From positions 558,001 to 622,000 of the forward strand of contig NZ_CP071849.1 of NCBI RefSeq assembly GCF_023716565.1: 64,000 bases of DNA. The letters are read 5' to 3'. This stretch comes from Vibrio sp. SCSIO 43136. Lineage in GTDB: Bacteria > Pseudomonadota > Gammaproteobacteria > Enterobacterales > Vibrionaceae. Every line of letters begins with the position of its first letter. The first letter of the stretch is position 1. Under the pieces are notes generated by a model that did not search any database, was not told the DNA's origin, and was given only the letters and a program-made list of their open reading frames with translations. Of the stretch, positions 12,553-40,741 are shown in pieces. The position numbers and the translations under genes are program-made.

Positions 12553-12626
12553 GGCGTGTTGGCAGAGTGGCTATGCAGCGGATTGCAAATCCGTGGACCT
12601 CGGTTCGACTCCGGGACGCGCCTCCA
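12553..12626 (+). tRNA. tRNA-Cys (GCA)
   Basis: 74 nt including an encoded CCA. The acceptor stem GGCGTGT pairs with ACGCGCC (one G-U pair), the anticodon loop ATTGCAAAT reads GCA, and the T loop is GGTTCGACTCC. It is the first gene of the array. Confidence 0.95.
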
Positions 12627-12629
12627 TTT

Positions 12630-12705
12630 GCGACACTAGCTCAGTTGGTAGAGCGCAACCTTGCCAAGGTTGAGGTCACGAGTTCGAACCTCGTGTGTCG
12701 CTCCA
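12630..12705 (+). tRNA. tRNA-Gly (GCC)
   Basis: 76 nt with an encoded CCA. The acceptor GCGACAC pairs with GTGTCGC, the anticodon stem CAACC/GGTTG encloses TTGCCAA, and the T loop is GTTCGAACC. It follows tRNA-Cys by three bases. Confidence 0.95.
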
Positions 12706-12780
12706 AATTTTGGAGTGTGGAACCTGTAAAGGTTCAGTGCTTAAAGATGGTGTCTAACCCATCGCAATAAAGAATTGCGT

Positions 12781-12867
12781 GCCCTGGTGGTGGAATTGGT
12801 AGACACAAGGGATTTAAAATCCCTCGACGTTCGCGTTGTGCCGGTTCAAGTCCGGCCCGGGGCACCA
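12781..12867 (+). tRNA. tRNA-Leu (TAA)
   Basis: 87 nt class II tRNA with a long variable arm and an encoded CCA. The anticodon loop TTTAAAA between AGGGA and TCCCT reads UAA. Two degenerate copies of its 3' half follow directly. Confidence 0.95.
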
Positions 12868-13057
12868 TCTACAAAATAGAAAATTTGATGGATTCAAAAT
12901 CCCTCGCCATTCACGATGTACCGGCCGAAATGTCGGACCATCAATTCCGGCCCGGGGCACCATCTACAAAATAGAAAATTTGGTGGATTTAAAATTCCTC
13001 GCCATTCACGATGTACCGGCCGAAATGTCGGACCATCAATACCGGCCCGGGGCACCA
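12868..13057 (+). repeat. Two tandem 95-bp repeats carrying tRNA-Leu 3'-half remnants
   Basis: Units at 12868-12962 and 12963-13057 differ at only a few positions. Each has an AT-rich 19-bp spacer, then an anticodon-arm-like segment (GATTCAAAATCCCTCG or GATTTAAAATTCCTCG), a variable-arm-like segment and the acceptor end CCGGCCCGGGGCACCA, all aligned with the preceding tRNA-Leu. The 5' acceptor strand and D arm are missing. The T loop is replaced by a longer segment containing CCGAAATGTCGG. They cannot fold as normal tRNAs and look like duplicated tRNA fragments. Confidence 0.9.
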
Positions 13058-13092
13058 TCTACAACAAATAATCGGTAAAAACCATTATTTAA

Positions 13093-13166
13093 GGCGTGTT
13101 GGCAGAGTGGCTATGCAGCGGATTGCAAATCCGTGGACCTCGGTTCGACTCCGGGACGCGCCTCCA
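13093..13166 (+). tRNA. tRNA-Cys (GCA), second copy
   Basis: Identical over 74 nt to the first tRNA-Cys, including the 3-bp spacer to the following tRNA-Gly, so the Cys-Gly pair has been duplicated as a block. Confidence 0.95.
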
Positions 13167-13169
13167 TTT

Positions 13170-13245
13170 GCGACACTAGCTCAGCTGGTAGAGCGCAACC
13201 TTGCCAAGGTTGAGGTCACGAGTTCGAACCTCGTGTGTCGCTCCA
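13170..13245 (+). tRNA. tRNA-Gly (GCC), second copy
   Basis: Differs from the first tRNA-Gly by one base in the D loop (AGCTCAGCTGG instead of AGCTCAGTTGG). The anticodon is GCC and CCA is encoded. It is the last gene of the array before the terminator. Confidence 0.95.
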
Positions 13246-13300: not shown

Positions 13301-14805
13301 GGACAGGCACTTCTTAATTTTTAAGGACACACACCTTAAAAGGCTTCACTTCATTCGGGACAGGCGTCTCAGAGTAGCTATCTATTTCTTTTTTAAGGAC
13401 ATACACCTTAAATGGCTTCACTTTATTTGGGACAAGCGTCTCAAAGTAGCTTCGCAATAAGCATGTTAAAGGACAGACACCAAAAGAAATAGTGCTCTTA
13501 AAAGATCAAGGGTATGTACCCTGCCTAAGTCTAATCAATTTTGGTGGCCTGGCATAATCTCTTTCACGCAAATCTGGTAGATTTACTCATACGACGTATA
13601 CGCTTCAAAAATAAACGTAGTTAGAACGCAGTACGAGTAACCAGCAAGTGCTGGCATTAAACGTAAGGTTAAGAAGAGATACTTATTCGAGAGAATAAAA
13701 GTGAATCTTGGACTTATTTAGTGCAGATTTTGCATGCTCTATCAGAGAAATACCACCGATTGCAGTGGCGTGCCGTTTCTCTAGTAGAGTGCAAGCACCT
13801 AACCATCGTTCTTGATTAATATTGAGTCGAACTAATATTGGAGGAATTGAACTGTGCATCGAGCATTTCCCAGCTCTCAGTTGCTTTGCGCTCCAATCAA
13901 CTAACTCTAAATAATCAATGAGCCTAAACGGAAGGCCATCGAGGGAGGTGTTCGCTGAACCAACAAATGGGTGAAGGCACGGAGCAGTTTCAAGATTTTG
14001 CTGTAGTGCTTGGATTCGTGCACTTATTGAGGTGAAATCAGAGCTTTCTGGAGTCTTGGCGACCCCAGCACGTACTGGATTGAGATCAACATAAGCCATC
14101 GCAGCGGCAAGAGCTTTTTCATCTAATAGTGCTTGGCTCTTAAAGCGACTCTCCCAGAAATGCCCTGTGTAGTTATCTTCTTGGTTGGCTCGACAAGCAA
14201 TGTCGTAGTTGAGTTCTTTCATAAACCAACTTAGCGACCACAAGCGTTCACGCCAAGACTCAATAATCTCCCAACATTTTAGCTCTTCTGCTTCACAAGA
14301 AAGTTGCTTTTTCTGCCACCTTTTAATCAGCGCAGGAAGTTTGTGTAGTAGTCCCCATCGCTCAACGACTTCACTTAAAGTAAGCGCACAAGCCTTGTCC
14401 CGATTGATGTGAAGAACCACGTGGAAATGGTTGCTCATCACAGCGTAAGCGCAAACATCAATACAGTATGTACGTGTAAGAGACAGAATTTTAGCTTCTA
14501 TCCACGCCCTACGATGTTCATAGCTTTTATTGGTGAGTTCGTCGATTCCGCACAAATAGCTACGCCGAACACAGCGAGAAACGCAGTGGTAATAGGGTGT
14601 TGCATCTACTGAGATGAGGTTTTTTCTAGGTGTTGTCATAGTCGATAATAAGGAGGATTTTTGAGTAACGTAACAGCCTGCTTGGGATAGAAATGAGAGC
14701 AGTGGCGTTTTTGTTAGAAAATCAGTCTAGATTCATACTTTTGGTGTGTGTCCTGAATAGAGGAATGGGAGTGGTGGAAGTTCAGGGAATATTCGGTGTG
14801 TGTCC
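13301..14805. mobile_element. RAYT element: Y1 transposase with flanking GGACA-type repeats
   Basis: On the left, GGACA-type motifs occur at 13301, 13325, 13358, 13397, 13430 and 13471. They include two imperfect direct repeats of about 60 bp (13321-13380 and 13392-13452) that contain TTAAGGACAYACACCTTAAA and GGCTTCACTT. On the right, the inverted form GGTGTGTGTCC occurs at 14743-14753 and 14795-14805. The transposase gene lies between. This arrangement is that of REP-associated tyrosine transposases, in which the repeats are the likely substrate. Borders are approximate. The 437-bp stretch 13246-13682 holds only these repeats and the tRNA terminator. Confidence 0.75.
13683..14639 (-). CDS. 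REP-associated tyrosine transposase (Y1/IS200-like)
   Basis: A 318-residue single-stranded-DNA transposase of the Y1 HUH group. The metal-binding HUH motif is SNHFHVVLH (about 94-102). The conserved block AMAYVDLNPVRAG (about 185-197) carries the catalytic Tyr region typical of TnpA-REP/RAYT proteins. It starts MTTPRKNLISVDATPYYHC, the usual opening of large marine gammaproteobacterial members. The frame is intact, so the protein may be active. It sits between sets of GGACA-type repeats, next to the tRNA array and an IS3 element. Confidence 0.9.
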   Translation of the reverse strand: MTTPRKNLISVDATPYYHCVSRCVRRSYLCGIDELTNKSYEHRRAWIEAKILSLTRTYCIDVCAYAVMSNHFHVVLHINRDKACALTLSEVVERWGLLHKLPALIKRWQKKQLSCEAEELKCWEIIESWRERLWSLSWFMKELNYDIACRANQEDNYTGHFWESRFKSQALLDEKALAAAMAYVDLNPVRAGVAKTPESSDFTSISARIQALQQNLETAPCLHPFVGSANTSLDGLPFRLIDYLELVDWSAKQLRAGKCSMHSSIPPILVRLNINQERWLGACTLLEKRHATAIGGISLIEHAKSALNKSKIHFYSLE

Positions 14806-14879: not shown

Positions 14880-15683
14880 TTAAGCGGCTTGCAAGGCCTG
14901 ATTTCGATATTCAATCGGAGTCAGGCCTTTTAGTTTTACCTTAATCCGCTTGGTGTTGTAATACTCGATATACTCTTCAATCTGCTCTATAAGATCGTTG
15001 GCATCATTAAATGATTGATTGTGGTACATCTCTGTCTTAAGCAGTGCGAAGAAGTTCTCTGCCACTGCATTATCTAAACAGTTCCCTTTTCTCGACATGC
15101 TCTGTGTTAACCCATTATCGGTAATTTTCTTCTGATATAACTGATGTCGATATTGCCAGCCTTGATCACTATGTATGATCGGTTTTGAGTGCTTATCCAG
15201 CTTCGAGATCGCTTCTGTTAGCATATCAGTCACAAGAGGCAATCGTGCGTTCTTGGCGACTTTATAAGCGACAACCTCTTGAGTAAACAAGTCAACCACT
15301 GGTGACAGATAGACTTTTTGGCCTTTTACTTTGAACTCAGTAACATCGGTTACCCATTTTTCATCTGGTTTAGTTGCCGTGAAGTCTCTTTCTAAGATAT
15401 TTGGCGCACTTTTGCCTGTTTCCCCTCGATAAGAGCGATACTTCTTGGGTCTAACGGTTGATTTTAGACCTAGTTCTTCCATCAGTCGCTGGACCGTCTT
15501 GTGGTTTATTACGAACTCCAGCTTCTTTAACTCAAGGTGAATACGGCGGTACCCATACCGACCCTTATGCTCATGATAAATTGATTTAATTAACTCTCGT
15601 TCAATCGTATAGCTATCCGAGCGCTTACTCGCTTGTACTTGATAGTAGAACACACTTTTTGGCAGCTCGAGTGCTTGGAGCAA
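14880..15683 (-). CDS. IS3-family transposase OrfB (DDE integrase part)
   Basis: 267 residues from the first usable start codon, but the frame is open back to the slippery site near 15728-15733, so it is probably made as the C-terminal part of an OrfAB fusion. An HTH-21 region (KGRYGYRRIHLELKKLEF) precedes the rve integrase core. The catalytic triad is visible as WVTDVTEF, IIHSDQGWQY and LDNAVAENFFALLKTE. It ends in the usual EYIEYYNTKRIK and LKGLTPIEYR. All catalytic residues are present. It belongs to the IS150-like group by overall pattern. Confidence 0.93.
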   Translation of the reverse strand: MLQALELPKSVFYYQVQASKRSDSYTIERELIKSIYHEHKGRYGYRRIHLELKKLEFVINHKTVQRLMEELGLKSTVRPKKYRSYRGETGKSAPNILERDFTATKPDEKWVTDVTEFKVKGQKVYLSPVVDLFTQEVVAYKVAKNARLPLVTDMLTEAISKLDKHSKPIIHSDQGWQYRHQLYQKKITDNGLTQSMSRKGNCLDNAVAENFFALLKTEMYHNQSFNDANDLIEQIEEYIEYYNTKRIKVKLKGLTPIEYRNQALQAA

Positions 15684-15721
15684 GTGTTTTAGTGGGTGTA
15701 TTTCTCTGAGAGTTAGAGCAA

Positions 15722-16231
15722 TTACCGTTTTTTCTTTATTTGACGGCGTCTCTTTTCCTGCTCTAACTCCTCTAACTTTTTTAGGACAGCATTCTCCGCT
15801 CTCAAGTACGCTAACTCCTCTTTCAGCTCCTCCAAAGTCTTATCATCATCGGATGTAATAGGATGTTGAGGTTGCTGTTTCATAAGAGGTCTGCCTACTT
15901 TCTGAGGCTCGAGCCCTTTAATACCTTGTTCTCTGTATCTTTTTAGCCAAACAGAGAGTGTTCCAGGGGTCGAGAGGTTTAAGAAGGCACTAGTGTGCGT
16001 CAGAGACCAGCCATTCGTCCACATTAAATTAATCGCTTCTAGCTTCGTTTTAGCCGTTGAAGCATGATTTGTGGGAAGAAAAGAGTTAGTACCATGAATA
16101 GCAAAGACTTGCGCCCAGTACCTAATTTGTCTAGAGGAAATGGAATATTCTTTAGCTAACAGGCGAGATGGCACACCACTTAAGCATTGCTTAGCAATGA
16201 TGCACTTCAACTCACGACTATATTTGGACAT
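15722..16231 (-). CDS. IS3-family OrfA (helix-turn-helix protein)
   Basis: About 169 residues from the ATG at 16231 (MSKYSREL). Two helix-turn-helix repeats lie at about 1-50 (LAKEYSISSRQIRYW) and 65-105. A C-terminal leucine-zipper-like coiled coil (LEELKEELAYLRAENAVLKKLEEL) follows, as in IS150-type OrfA proteins. The last codons AAG-AAA-AAA-CGG form the A6 slippery run. A -1 shift there enters the OrfB frame without a stop, supporting programmed frameshifting to OrfAB. Confidence 0.92.
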   Translation of the reverse strand: MSKYSRELKCIIAKQCLSGVPSRLLAKEYSISSRQIRYWAQVFAIHGTNSFLPTNHASTAKTKLEAINLMWTNGWSLTHTSAFLNLSTPGTLSVWLKRYREQGIKGLEPQKVGRPLMKQQPQHPITSDDDKTLEELKEELAYLRAENAVLKKLEELEQEKRRRQIKKKR

Positions 16232-16312
16232 AAAAGACCCCCAATAATTGGTGTCCAACTATTGGGGGTCAGTTCAGAGTGTCAGGGCTTTGGTTGTTTC
16301 GGTTTAGTGCGA

Positions 16313-16912
16313 CTACATCTTTGTCAGGTACGTTACTAGCTCGAAGTATTGGTCTAGCGATTGGATGTTGTTTGTGACAACTAAGTACTTGTCGTTGACG
16401 ATGACAGAAGGTACGCCGCGTAAGCCTGCGCTTTGGAAGGCTTTATCGAAGCGTTTTTGCATTGAGTCAACGTTGAAGCCTTTGTATGCACCATCAAACT
16501 TTTTACCGTCGATACCGTTATCAATGAAGAGCTGACGAATCGCCGCTTCGTCTTTTGGTGGTTGTTTGTAATCATGGATCTGGCGGAACATCACAGGGAT
16601 CATTTTGTCCTCAACTTTTAGTGCAACCATGGTCGCATAAGCCTTAGACATTGGTAGGCCCATACTGCCACCCATGAAAGAAGGATGTACTTTTTGAACT
16701 TTTACGTTGGGATCTAGCTTAGTTTTTAACTGAGCAAAGATCGGTTCGAAGTCTTTACAGTGTGGGCAGTAAAAAGAGAAATACTCAGTAACGATAGGTT
16801 TGGACGATTTAGGTCCGTTCAGAACTTGGTAGTGATCACCTTCGTTAAATTTCGCTGCATGGGCTGATACTGCAAGCATTAGGCCTGCAAAAAGAGTGAA
16901 TAGCTTTTTCAT
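16313..16912 (-). CDS. dsbA: Periplasmic thiol:disulfide oxidoreductase DsbA
   Basis: A 199-residue DsbA, an oxidant that introduces disulfide bonds into exported proteins. It has a signal peptide of about 19 residues (ending SAHA/A), the active site [11 protein letters not shown] at about 49-52, and the cis-proline loop [10 protein letters not shown]. It resembles Vibrio TcpG/DsbA clearly but not closely, and it is not next to an rdoA/srkA gene as the usual copy is, so it may be a paralogue. The GGAG ribosome binding site seven bases before the ATG lies in the 3' arm of a long hairpin whose 5' arm is in the preceding 99-codon ORF. The IS3 element ends 41 bp past the stop, so the native terminator region may be displaced. 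Confidence 0.95.
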
Positions 16913-16918
16913 GTTGGT

Positions 16919-16972
16919 ACTCCAAAATAATATTAAAAAATCAAATAGTTTGTTGATTTGAATATTTTGGAG
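16919..16972 (-). promoter_or_regulatory. Hairpin sequestering the dsbA ribosome binding site
   Basis: On the minus strand CTCCAAAATATT (5' arm, 16972-16961) can pair with AATATTATTTTGGAG (3' arm, 16933-16919) with a small bulge. An inner AAATCA/TGATTT pairing extends it. The 3' arm contains GGAG, the dsbA Shine-Dalgarno sequence. The 5' arm is made of the CCT-CCA-AAA-TAT codons of the upstream ORF, whose stop codon lies in the loop side of the structure. This is direct sequence geometry; regulation is inferred. Confidence 0.65.
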
Positions 16973-17240
16973 GGCGGAACAGTGTTGAAGCTAACGAGGC
17001 GGTTTTTTCCGTCAAATCGTCAATATGTGGAGCGAAAGTGCTACTTGGTTGTGCAAAAGTCACAACAGGATTAGTTATCGGGGCTTTGGCAGGGCAACTG
17101 CTACACTGTGTGGTGGCCTGTGCGGCAGGCGCATGCTCCGCAGCAGCGGTATTTGCACAGATCTCTTCACTAATTGATTCGTTGAAGGTATAACCGATAC
17201 CAACAACTAAAACGAACAGTAAAACTAGATACTTACCCAT
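16941..17240 (-). CDS. 99-aa exported leader-like protein upstream of dsbA
   Basis: Residues 4-19 are a hydrophobic signal or anchor helix ([16 protein letters not shown]), so the rest is probably periplasmic. It carries C28, H36 and a CSSC motif at 46-49, followed by an Ala/Pro/Thr-rich linker, and ends [13 protein letters not shown]. The stop is 28 bp before dsbA and the ribosome binding site of the ORF itself is weak. The size, Cys motif and RPP near the end resemble DUF2946/CruR copper-responsive leaders, and the layout recalls SecM and VemP. I do not recognise a direct homologue. Whether it works as a protein, a regulatory nascent chain or both is open. Confidence 0.6.
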
Positions 17241-17318
17241 ACAGAACGAAGTATTACCAAAGACTTACGCCATCATATCACTGACCTATCACCGAAACTA
17301 GTGCTAACGCCAATGCTA

Positions 17319-18107
17319 TCAATTGCCTGATTGGTAAATAACAAAGCTGCTATATCCTACTACTCTTGAGCGGTGCTCTGTTAGTTCACCAGAGTTACTG
17401 TATTTAAGTTCCTCTATCTTAAAACTGTCATCTTTTATCATCTCAAGAAACGCATTGATGGCGGTAAATCCTAGCGCTCGCTTTTCATCAAGCTCAGGTG
17501 TTTTGGTCTCGATCATCTGTTTGGTTTGCTGATCAAAACCTATTGCCTCTTGGTACCGCAATGACTCACTCAAGTCACTGCATACAACCATTAATGTATC
17601 GCTGCCCCATAGAGGCTCAATGATTTGAGCTAGCCGATGGACTTGTATTTCTCCAACCAATATTGGAATGATTCTGGCATCCGGCAAGCAGGCATGAAGG
17701 AAGGGGAGTTGTAGCTCCAGGCTGTGTTCTGGGGCATGAACGGCGTCGGCGAAATGTGCTTCTGGATGTAGCGAAAGCGCACCGGTCGCATCGGTGTCGA
17801 TTGGCACTTCACCCACCGGAGTAGAAAACTCTTTCGCACCCGATAAAACGATACCATCAAAATGAAAATGATGGCTCGCTCCAAGCAAAATGATGTTGCG
17901 ATATACCTTTGGGCTGTACTTGATATAACGAAAGGCGCATGCCGCAACGTCACCTGAGTAATCGTAACCCGAATGAGGCACGATAATGGCACGAATGTTT
18001 TCAATGGCTGAAGCTGGCTCGCTCAACCATTGGTTCATTTGATCTATGAGTGTAGCAGGGCAGTTGGGGTAAAAATGCCCAGCGACACTTGGTGGTCGCA
18101 CCTTCAT
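17319..18107 (-). CDS. amrB: MEMO1/AmrB family protein
   Basis: About 262 residues of the MEMO-like family, known as AmmeMemoRadiSam system protein B. It opens with the family signature VRPPSVAGHFYP. Metal/active-site-like residues are visible in IIVPHSGYDYSG, LLGASHHFHFDG, HAPEHSLELQLPFL and VVCSDLSESL. I started at the ATG at 18107; the upstream extension of 25 codons has no conserved sequence. The usual partners AmrA and AmrS are not adjacent, so this is an orphan copy. The diguanylate cyclase gene ends 83 bp upstream of this start and in the same direction, so they may be co-transcribed. The biochemical function is not settled in bacteria. Confidence 0.88.
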   Translation of the reverse strand: MKVRPPSVAGHFYPNCPATLIDQMNQWLSEPASAIENIRAIIVPHSGYDYSGDVAACAFRYIKYSPKVYRNIILLGASHHFHFDGIVLSGAKEFSTPVGEVPIDTDATGALSLHPEAHFADAVHAPEHSLELQLPFLHACLPDARIIPILVGEIQVHRLAQIIEPLWGSDTLMVVCSDLSESLRYQEAIGFDQQTKQMIETKTPELDEKRALGFTAINAFLEMIKDDSFKIEELKYSNSGELTEHRSRVVGYSSFVIYQSGN

Positions 18108-39810: not shown

Positions 39811-40443
39811 TCATTGAGAAGTTTTAGAAAGCAGGTAGTTTATCGTTTTTACGAGATCATTAACATCCTCATGTCCTGATGTGATCAGCTCATACTTTCC
39901 TTTAATAATGAAGGTAGGTACACCATTGATTTGGCTTTGCTGCGTGATTTCATCGGCTTCATTGAGCAGTTCAAATAACGCCTTTTGCTGAATTTCATCG
40001 AATTGATATGGGCTAACCAAGCCATACTCATTGAAAAGGCTTTCGAGTGCTTGTTGGCGAGCCTCACCAGTGGTGTAGTCTTGAGATTGCATTACCGAAA
40101 ACAGTTTTTCCATCATCTCATGGTCTGGAGTGCTGTCTAACTGCATTTGTGCTGCATAATAGATTAGAGCTGCAACTTGTGCGCTTTCATTGAAGGTAAT
40201 GTGTACTTTACCAATCGGTTTGTTGATCCCTTCTTCAATCTGCGGGATCACTTTTTCCATGCTGCGACAATGGCCACAGGTAAGGGAGAATACTTCCGTA
40301 ACAGGCGTAATAGAGTTTTGTTTGAGCTCGGTAGGTAGTAGTTTGTATTGCTCGCCGAGTTTCGGCTCGGCAGTGTCGCTACAACCAATCAGTGCGAGAG
40401 AAGACAAAACCAGTGTAGCTAGAGATAGCTTTTTTATAATCAT
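39811..40443 (-). CDS. DsbA-family thiol:disulfide oxidoreductase lipoprotein
   Basis: 210 residues from the ATG at 40443 (MIIKKLSLATL). The lipobox is LALIGC with Cys21 as the acylated residue. A thioredoxin-like DsbA domain has the active site LTCGHCRSMEKV and the cis-proline loop GVPTFIIKGKYEL. CGHC differs from the CPHC of dsbA at 16.3 kb, which often changes redox potential. It is the second DsbA-like protein in the window and is paired with an FKBP gene. The lipid anchor should keep it at a membrane, and substrate is unknown. Confidence 0.9.
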   Translation of the reverse strand: MIIKKLSLATLVLSSLALIGCSDTAEPKLGEQYKLLPTELKQNSITPVTEVFSLTCGHCRSMEKVIPQIEEGINKPIGKVHITFNESAQVAALIYYAAQMQLDSTPDHEMMEKLFSVMQSQDYTTGEARQQALESLFNEYGLVSPYQFDEIQQKALFELLNEADEITQQSQINGVPTFIIKGKYELITSGHEDVNDLVKTINYLLSKTSQ

Positions 40444-40741
40444 TTGTATTTTGTAACCTTTTAGGTGGAAACTTGGTGCTAGGTATTCAGTTGGAGGCAA
40501 CACCAAGTGACGCTAAATGCTCTTTCTAGAGCTGAATCGATATATTTAGAGGATAACTTGTATGAATGGTTCAATCTGTTTTAGGAACTGTGACTGGACG
40601 CAAGGAAGTTTACCTAATATGTTCAAAAACTAAGCGTTACCATCGAGATTGAAAAACAATTGTGAATTGGGCTTAAAGGAATCCCCGTTTTTGCCGATAC
40701 TAGGAGTATCAGCTCAACACTGAGATTAAGGTCAAACAAGA

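Follow-up and report, generated by a model that had tools for sequence, protein, structure and literature searches.

A dsbA-linked leader family in Vibrio: a candidate nascent-chain sensor of the CopL/CutF kind

The leader and its dsbA neighbour in the window

The window (the whole stretch of DNA analysed, 64,000 nucleotides) carries on its reverse strand a 99-codon open reading frame, here called the leader, followed downstream by a dsbA paralogue: the stop codon of the leader and the ATG of dsbA (at 16912) are separated by 28 bp. A sequence-only reading had described an ORF of this length at this distance from dsbA, with CSSC at residues 46-49 and FRPPK near its C-terminus, and these coordinates were confirmed. 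The features of the locus are:

16941..17240, minus strand: leader (uORF), 99 aa, CopL/CutF-like nascent-chain sensor candidate
17184..17231, minus strand: hydrophobic N-terminal segment seen in the sequence (residues 4-19), signal sequence or anchor
17157..17159, minus strand: third Cys (residue 28), at -61 from Arg89
17094..17105, minus strand: CSSC (residues 46-49), with Cys at -43 and -40 from Arg89
16965..16979, minus strand: FRPPK (residues 88-92; R89, P90, P91, K92), presumed motif of putative pausing
16963..16972, minus strand: 5' arm of the predicted hairpin, CUCCAAAAUA, formed by the Pro-Pro-Lys-Tyr codons
16938..16959, minus strand: predicted inner helix (16959..16953 with 16944..16938), spanning the leader stop codon
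16920..16929, minus strand: 3' arm of the predicted hairpin, UAUUUUGGAG, containing the dsbA GGAG (16920-16923)
16313..16912, minus strand: dsbA paralogue with CPHC active site, presumed target

No obvious Shine-Dalgarno (SD) of its own was seen by eye before the leader, no intrinsic-terminator-like site was found in 16850..17420, an Rfam scan returned tRNAs only, and a promoter scan gave one site versus 1.2 expected. Pfam and NCBIfam models did not match the leader, and single-sequence searches retrieved only the leader itself; relatives were therefore reachable only by way of the dsbA neighbour. With a profile of 30 relatives from which the window was excluded, on the other hand, the leader alone, out of 1092 reading frames in the window, matched significantly (E 1.1e-9, the runner-up being at 0.091).

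The genome of the window has four DsbA-like matches, and a second leader of the same kind was not seen in it. The nearest other dsbA (52% identical) lies behind a gene ending ...LTPQW, which we take for srkA/rdoA, the kinase gene that dsbA normally follows. Directly downstream of the leader-linked dsbA is a two-ORF rve/HTH transposase (14880..16258; IS3-like by its domains), which may cut off whatever once lay 3' of dsbA. Elsewhere in the window are a second DsbA-like protein with CGHC (39811..40506), which shares 25% identity with the window DsbA and may be a lipoprotein, and, at 12553..13245 and 13683..14639, a tRNA-Cys/Gly/Leu cluster with a repeated Cys-Gly pair and an adjoining RAYT-like ORF assigned by eye and without a Pfam match.

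Leader-dsbA pairs across genomes and their copper-gene kin

Second-copy and canonical dsbA were distinguished by score and place, which for 39 loci was done prior to discovery of the leader. All 39 of these second-copy loci (38 genomes of the genus) carry, 41-209 bp ahead of dsbA, a same-strand ORF that contains Cys and has [RK]PP towards its C-terminus, and by eye most of these ORFs begin with a hydrophobic segment; under the identical ORF rule none of 50 canonical-type loci has such an ORF, and the upstream gene, inspected at 20 of these 50, ends alike in all 20. A profile of 31 leaders (A1) was run on 227 genomes of the genus, with strong and weak matches divided by hand on E-value: each of the 92 strong ones (the window and 91 at E <= 1e-17) immediately precedes a same-strand dsbA. 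A leader thus stands directly 5' of dsbA in at least 91 of the 227 genomes (about 40% of the sampled species), such genome counts being lower bounds because the search scored part of the candidates per genome and the best were listed. With three more loci from two sister genera the set comes to 95, of which 55 were found via the leader profile; its extraction rule demanded [RK]PP and two Cys, and no locus failed it. At the 95 loci the spacer between leader and dsbA is mostly short (28-206 bp, median 85). The sequence-only reading had made conservation the touchstone of its proposal, and the ORF, the PP motif and the Cys pair do recur next to dsbA throughout the genus, with the leader absent at the 50 canonical loci.

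The proline motif [RK]PP is present at 95/95 loci, mostly as YRPPI (47) or FRPPI (38), less often as YKPPI (4) or LRPPI (2), and once each as FRPPK (the window), MRPPK, KRPPK and FKPPI. What held of the proposed RPPK conservation is therefore the [RK]PP: RPPK itself is a minority form (3/95), the usual one being [YF]RPPI. The earlier comparison with RAPP/RAGP-type arrest motifs did not hold, as the family motif is [YF]RPP[IK] and not R[AG]PP; R-[A/G]-P-P occurs in none of the 95 dsbA leaders, all of which read [YFLMK][RK]PP[IK]. Counted from the Arg/Lys, Cys is at -40 in 88/95 leaders, at -44 in 87/95, at both in 86/95 and somewhere from -43 to -46 in 95/95. The CSSC singled out earlier is accordingly kept as a Cys pair at fixed spacing and not as a sequence: CxxxC is the usual motif, and the window is exceptional, no other of the 95 loci combining a Cys at -43 with one at -40. 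Many relatives have a third Cys at -58 to -65 (window, -61), 89/95 have His at -48 to -44, where the window leader has none, and 52 of the 95 have vicinal CC at -45/-44. The window leader also has no Met in the stretch scored for Met/Cys content. Only two residues remain after PP in 74/95 leaders.

Codons for the Arg, the second Pro and the Ile of the motif vary, which points to selection on the peptide, and conservation of the RPP codons as RNA only was rejected as a full explanation because synonymous changes are common. For the first Pro of RPP, nevertheless, 93/95 loci (L002, L066-L104 and L145-L199) use CCT or CCC, which make up 334 of the 691 other Pro codons in these leaders. By comparison of the loci, the leaders form a dsbA-linked family with a fixed Cys-to-PP spacing.

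The weaker A1 matches in the genus are paralogous leaders which also end in RPPI and have Cys at -40 in 21/23. As judged by eye, 19 weaker-match loci comprise 13 before RND efflux sets, four before DUF411-type genes, one before a Met-rich protein and one remnant (L117); domain models, applied to one RND and one DUF411 locus, gave OEP, CusB/CusF and CusA (L110) and DUF411 (L109). Alignment of A1 with 21 paralogous leaders by hhalign had a probability of 99.7% (E 2.7e-25, 122 columns). In this comparison set 16/21 leaders were seen before Cus-type efflux, DUF411 or other copper-type genes, and both the 21- and the 23-leader copper-type sets include L200-L204 from sister genera, where the downstream genes were unread and gave no dsbA match. 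On this profile comparison, the dsbA-leader family is homologous to the leaders of copper-efflux and DUF411 genes. The dsbA leaders have less Met (mean 1.2 vs 3.5) and less Cys (3.5 vs 5.1) than the 23 copper-type leaders; moreover the Ile codon is ATA in 14/23 copper-type leaders vs 5/95 dsbA leaders, and a codon-level effect on pausing is possible.

CopL_fam (NF033807) matches 11/31 dsbA leaders and 17/21 copper-type leaders weakly, below its 40-bit cut-off (best E 1.2e-4 among the dsbA-leader relatives; 30.1 bits for the first copper-type leader). The window leader has no match to NF033807; the link to CopL runs through the copper-type leaders. Two CopL matches above the cut-off (L225 and L238) end in FRPPIA and NRPPIA and carry their Cys 37 to 53 residues ahead of the Arg, and the sub-cut-off matches from the class mostly look similar. 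A likeness to DUF2946/CruR copper leaders had also been noted from the sequence. It stands as kinship with CopL-resembling leaders of copper genes and fails for DUF2946 itself: Pfam DUF2946 (PF11162) matches 0/31 dsbA leaders, and hhalign of the dsbA leaders with 7 DUF2946 proteins gave a probability of about 1%. PF11162 weakly matches 7/21 copper-type leaders (best E 0.0014), and some dsbA leaders are named DUF2946 in their sources despite the absent Pfam match.

The flanks of 16 leader-dsbA pairs fall into several different sets, partly common to relatives (L072 with L092, L082 with L100), and L074, L079 and L104 have one downstream gene in common. The free DsbA tree suggested that the leader had captured dsbA independently several times; however, a single clade of all leader-linked dsbA was not rejected (p-AU 0.06), grouping of the window with the main group had p-AU 0.63, and the position of the window DsbA within the tree is unsure. 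Plasmid transfer as the source was set aside, as the leader had no plasmid match and the 42 plasmid records with a DsbA match were all below 60% identity; so was synteny with the upstream Memo gene, as no dsbA lay within about 1.5 kb at 29 Memo loci in other genomes.

Some single loci depart from the common arrangement. One genome (G220) has two leader-dsbA pairs on one contig (L084, L085) and no further dsbA match at E <= 1e-30. In another (G116; L105, L196) the leader-linked dsbA is broken and matches as two fragments; the matches listed for this genome include no other dsbA at E <= 1e-20. In G212 a short leader remnant without dsbA (L117), likely a loss of the target dsbA, lies beside a gene that looks by eye like a PPIase gene; a PPIase-like gene also lies 3' of dsbA in L100. 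Outside the family of the window, one leader-dsbA pair was seen (L269, in G793; DsbA 62% identical), which suggests spread or an older origin of the pairing, and the other leaders read along with it are mostly 5' of copper-type genes.

A recurrent predicted hairpin over the dsbA start

In the window, the predicted minimum-free-energy (MFE) structure pairs CUCCAAAAUA (16972..16963) with UAUUUUGGAG (16929..16920) and covers the GGAG, in agreement with the earlier claim that the RPPKY codons pair with the dsbA GGAG. Against dinucleotide shuffles the z-scores were -2.69, -4.62 and -4.30 for three overlapping stretches. Most spacer shuffles, though, also leave GGAG paired with the CCUCC supplied by the Pro codons (mean 0.96 for GGAG); for the SD zone the shuffles give 0.70 against 0.76 in the window, whose hairpin score barely exceeds that of its shuffles. 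The window alone is thus no proof of a selected hairpin, and the evidence is recurrence and covariation elsewhere.

Pairing of a motif-independent SD zone was scored at the 95 loci against the region between the PP codons and +40, using 60 spacer shuffles per locus. The pairing probability exceeded 0.5 at 82/95 loci, versus 1/95 for the shuffle means; 68/95 loci beat at least 95% of their own shuffles and 27/95 do not. Masking the footprint of a ribosome at RPP raised predicted openness at 90/95 loci. Of the 39 loci chosen before the leader was discovered, 32 exceeded 0.5 while none did so in its shuffle mean, and the mask opened 37. In a version restricted to a recognisable SD (which left out 4 of 40 loci), 35/36 loci exceeded 0.5 and 22 beat 95% of shuffles. 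The 13/95 loci without a hairpin above 0.5 include both G220 copies and the G116 copy. Although the SD zone is more open at canonical loci (median 0.47 vs 0.23 at leader-linked ones), the folded stretches differ in make-up.

Covariation was assessed by swapping arms between loci. The duplex of a locus's own arms was stronger than the mean of swapped arms at 83/95 loci and in 51/61 cluster representatives (p 3.9e-9), the 61-cluster count being the safer one because the loci are related and p-values overstate independence. Own arms were within the strongest 5% of swaps at only 24/95 loci and 15/61 representatives. In the window the own-arm duplex is -12.2 kcal/mol vs swap means of -5.0 and -7.4. 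The covariation that the sequence-only reading had looked to for its hairpin is thus present, alongside the high pairing probability at 82/95 loci. In most relatives inspected the 5' arm comes after the PP codons, whereas those codons make up the arm in the window. Comparison of the loci places the dsbA start within a recurrent, co-varying predicted hairpin whose 5' arm starts at or just after the PP codons.

Proposed control of dsbA, rival readings and known systems

On the comparison of leaders and by analogy with known systems, we think it probable that the ORF is translated and acts as a CopL/CutF-like regulatory leader, controlling the adjacent dsbA paralogue by pausing-dependent unmasking, with copper(I) as ligand; pausing, ligand and direction of control on dsbA are what we infer. 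The leader would be exported during its own synthesis. With [FY]RPP at the peptidyl-transferase centre (PTC), the Cys pair 40 residues behind would be just out of the ribosome towards SecY, at or slightly past the tunnel exit, where copper(I) bound to the pair (and to His in most relatives) would restrain the chain and lengthen the pause, much as has been suggested for CutF. With the 5' arm covered by the paused ribosome, the Shine-Dalgarno would be free and dsbA would be translated, and DsbA might repair or protect periplasmic thiols under copper stress. Without ligand, the chain would be pulled out, translation would finish and the hairpin would close. Pausing-dependent unmasking of dsbA is favoured because the anatomy matches CutF, with dsbA as target. 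As to the ligand, copper is by analogy the favoured and likelier one for the family, with thiol oxidation as its rival, more so for the bare CxxC of the window: the window leader, which lacks Met in the scored stretch as well as His at -48 to -44, may have a different ligand. Several points speak against the favoured reading: the dsbA leaders are poorer in Met and Cys than the copper-type leaders, [FY]RPP[IK] is not the R[AG]PP arrest motif, the CutF proline motif alone gave no stalling, and the hairpin is missing or weak at part of the loci.

Under the redox alternative the nascent leader would be a test substrate of the disulfide system, and its Cys pair, by becoming oxidised or by staying unoxidised at low DsbA levels, would alter pull and pausing and so feed back on dsbA. 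This has some appeal, in that dsbA encodes a thiol oxidase, few features are as constant as the Cys pair even as most Met has disappeared, the window leader is a bare CxxC without neighbouring His, and a thioredoxin-linked arrest peptide with a Cys pair, described in the available part of PMC12992588, is a related hint; we still judge it unlikely, as His at -48 to -44 in 89/95 leaders and vicinal CC in 52 look like a metal site, a pair 40 residues away from the PTC is unlikely to have reached DsbA in the periplasm, and the kin leaders serve copper genes. A little less credible is a fuller version, in which a thiol-oxidising system would read the leader Cys pair, [FY]RPP[IK] would be a non-RAPP pause motif and, in the lineage of the window, a copper leader would have been stripped of its metal ligands to a bare CxxC redox switch.

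Control might alternatively be transcriptional, with a paused ribosome shielding the leader RNA from Rho and the hairpin of little weight. CruR, with its Cys and PP motifs, is a precedent (PMC9426467, as far as that text was available), and some loci have no hairpin or have long spacers; the spacers are mostly short (median 85), however, and the masking helix recurs and co-varies, which makes this account quite improbable. The signal-like N-terminus, the Cys pair and the conservation with dsbA would also suit an exported partner of DsbA, a small thiol or metal-binding protein whose C-terminal RPP is no pause site. Such a protein would hardly explain a strict Cys-to-PP spacing with otherwise little conservation, or why only two residues follow PP in 74/95 leaders and the start-masking RNA begins there, and we give it very little credence. 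The idea of a chance ORF with chance motifs could draw on the single-sequence searches that gave no other homologue; it is practically dismissed by the window-free profile, which finds the ORF at E 1.1e-9, and by the agreement of position and spacing with 94 other loci.

The family links the disulfide machinery to leaders of the CopL/CutF kind, familiar from copper genes, in about 40% of the sampled species. The 95 leaders make up a natural alignment with a fixed sensor-to-pause spacing and a co-varying switch hairpin, through which two questions become directly testable: which signal, copper or oxidation, the Cys pair reads at the tunnel exit, and whether [YF]RPPI brings about pausing as a motif in its own right, separate from RAPP. 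Should the redox alternative be true after all, which we doubt, dsbA would be tuned by oxidation of its own leader on the way out.

VemP and SecM are pausing leaders which unmask a downstream start, and the dsbA leader resembles them in this. It differs in target and sequence: by eye the window leader lacks RxxxWKxxNxxY, a motif given in the available part of PMC10987492. The RAPP/RGPP uORFs of a 2025 EMBO J paper (PMC12992588) are short, have a C-terminal Pro-Pro and mostly a localization signal, and occur in front of copper, thioredoxin and DsbA-family genes, the motif ratios being high for the latter two. Arrest peptides before dsbA are thus already in print as an idea; their motif is R[AG]PP, whereas the dsbA-leader family has mainly [YF]RPP[IK], which is unnamed in the available part of that paper. 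CruR of Bordetella pertussis (DUF2946) is likewise an exported uORF with a Cys pair and a C-terminal PP motif before the controlled gene, but has a RAPP motif, 45 intervening residues, Rho-dependent termination and a pause relieved by copper (PMC9426467, as available). The word dsbA is absent from the main texts of this paper and of the sec/yidC survey (PMC10987492), and we found no report of the Vibrio leader-dsbA family in open-licence papers, supplements aside.

Also among the closest systems is CutF of Rhodobacter capsulatus, a Sec-type leader with CxxxC, PP near its C-terminus and a stem-loop over the downstream Shine-Dalgarno; in the available text, copper on CxxxC is proposed to slow export at the PP motif and so to open the stem-loop over the next start, the proline motif alone gave no stalling in the published test, and the Cys pair, at 45 residues, is located by the authors in the SecY vestibule (PMC9973294). 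There the target is cutO and the distance is 45, versus dsbA and 40 here, and the words dsb and Vibrio are absent from the main text (PMC9973294). CopL of Xanthomonas/Stenotrophomonas (NF033807) is similarly a small Cys-rich leader-like protein with a C-terminal RPP; the target in the window is dsbA and not a copper oxidase or efflux gene, and the dsbA leaders have fewer Met and Cys. Such leaders are known for copper genes; here the presumed target is dsbA.
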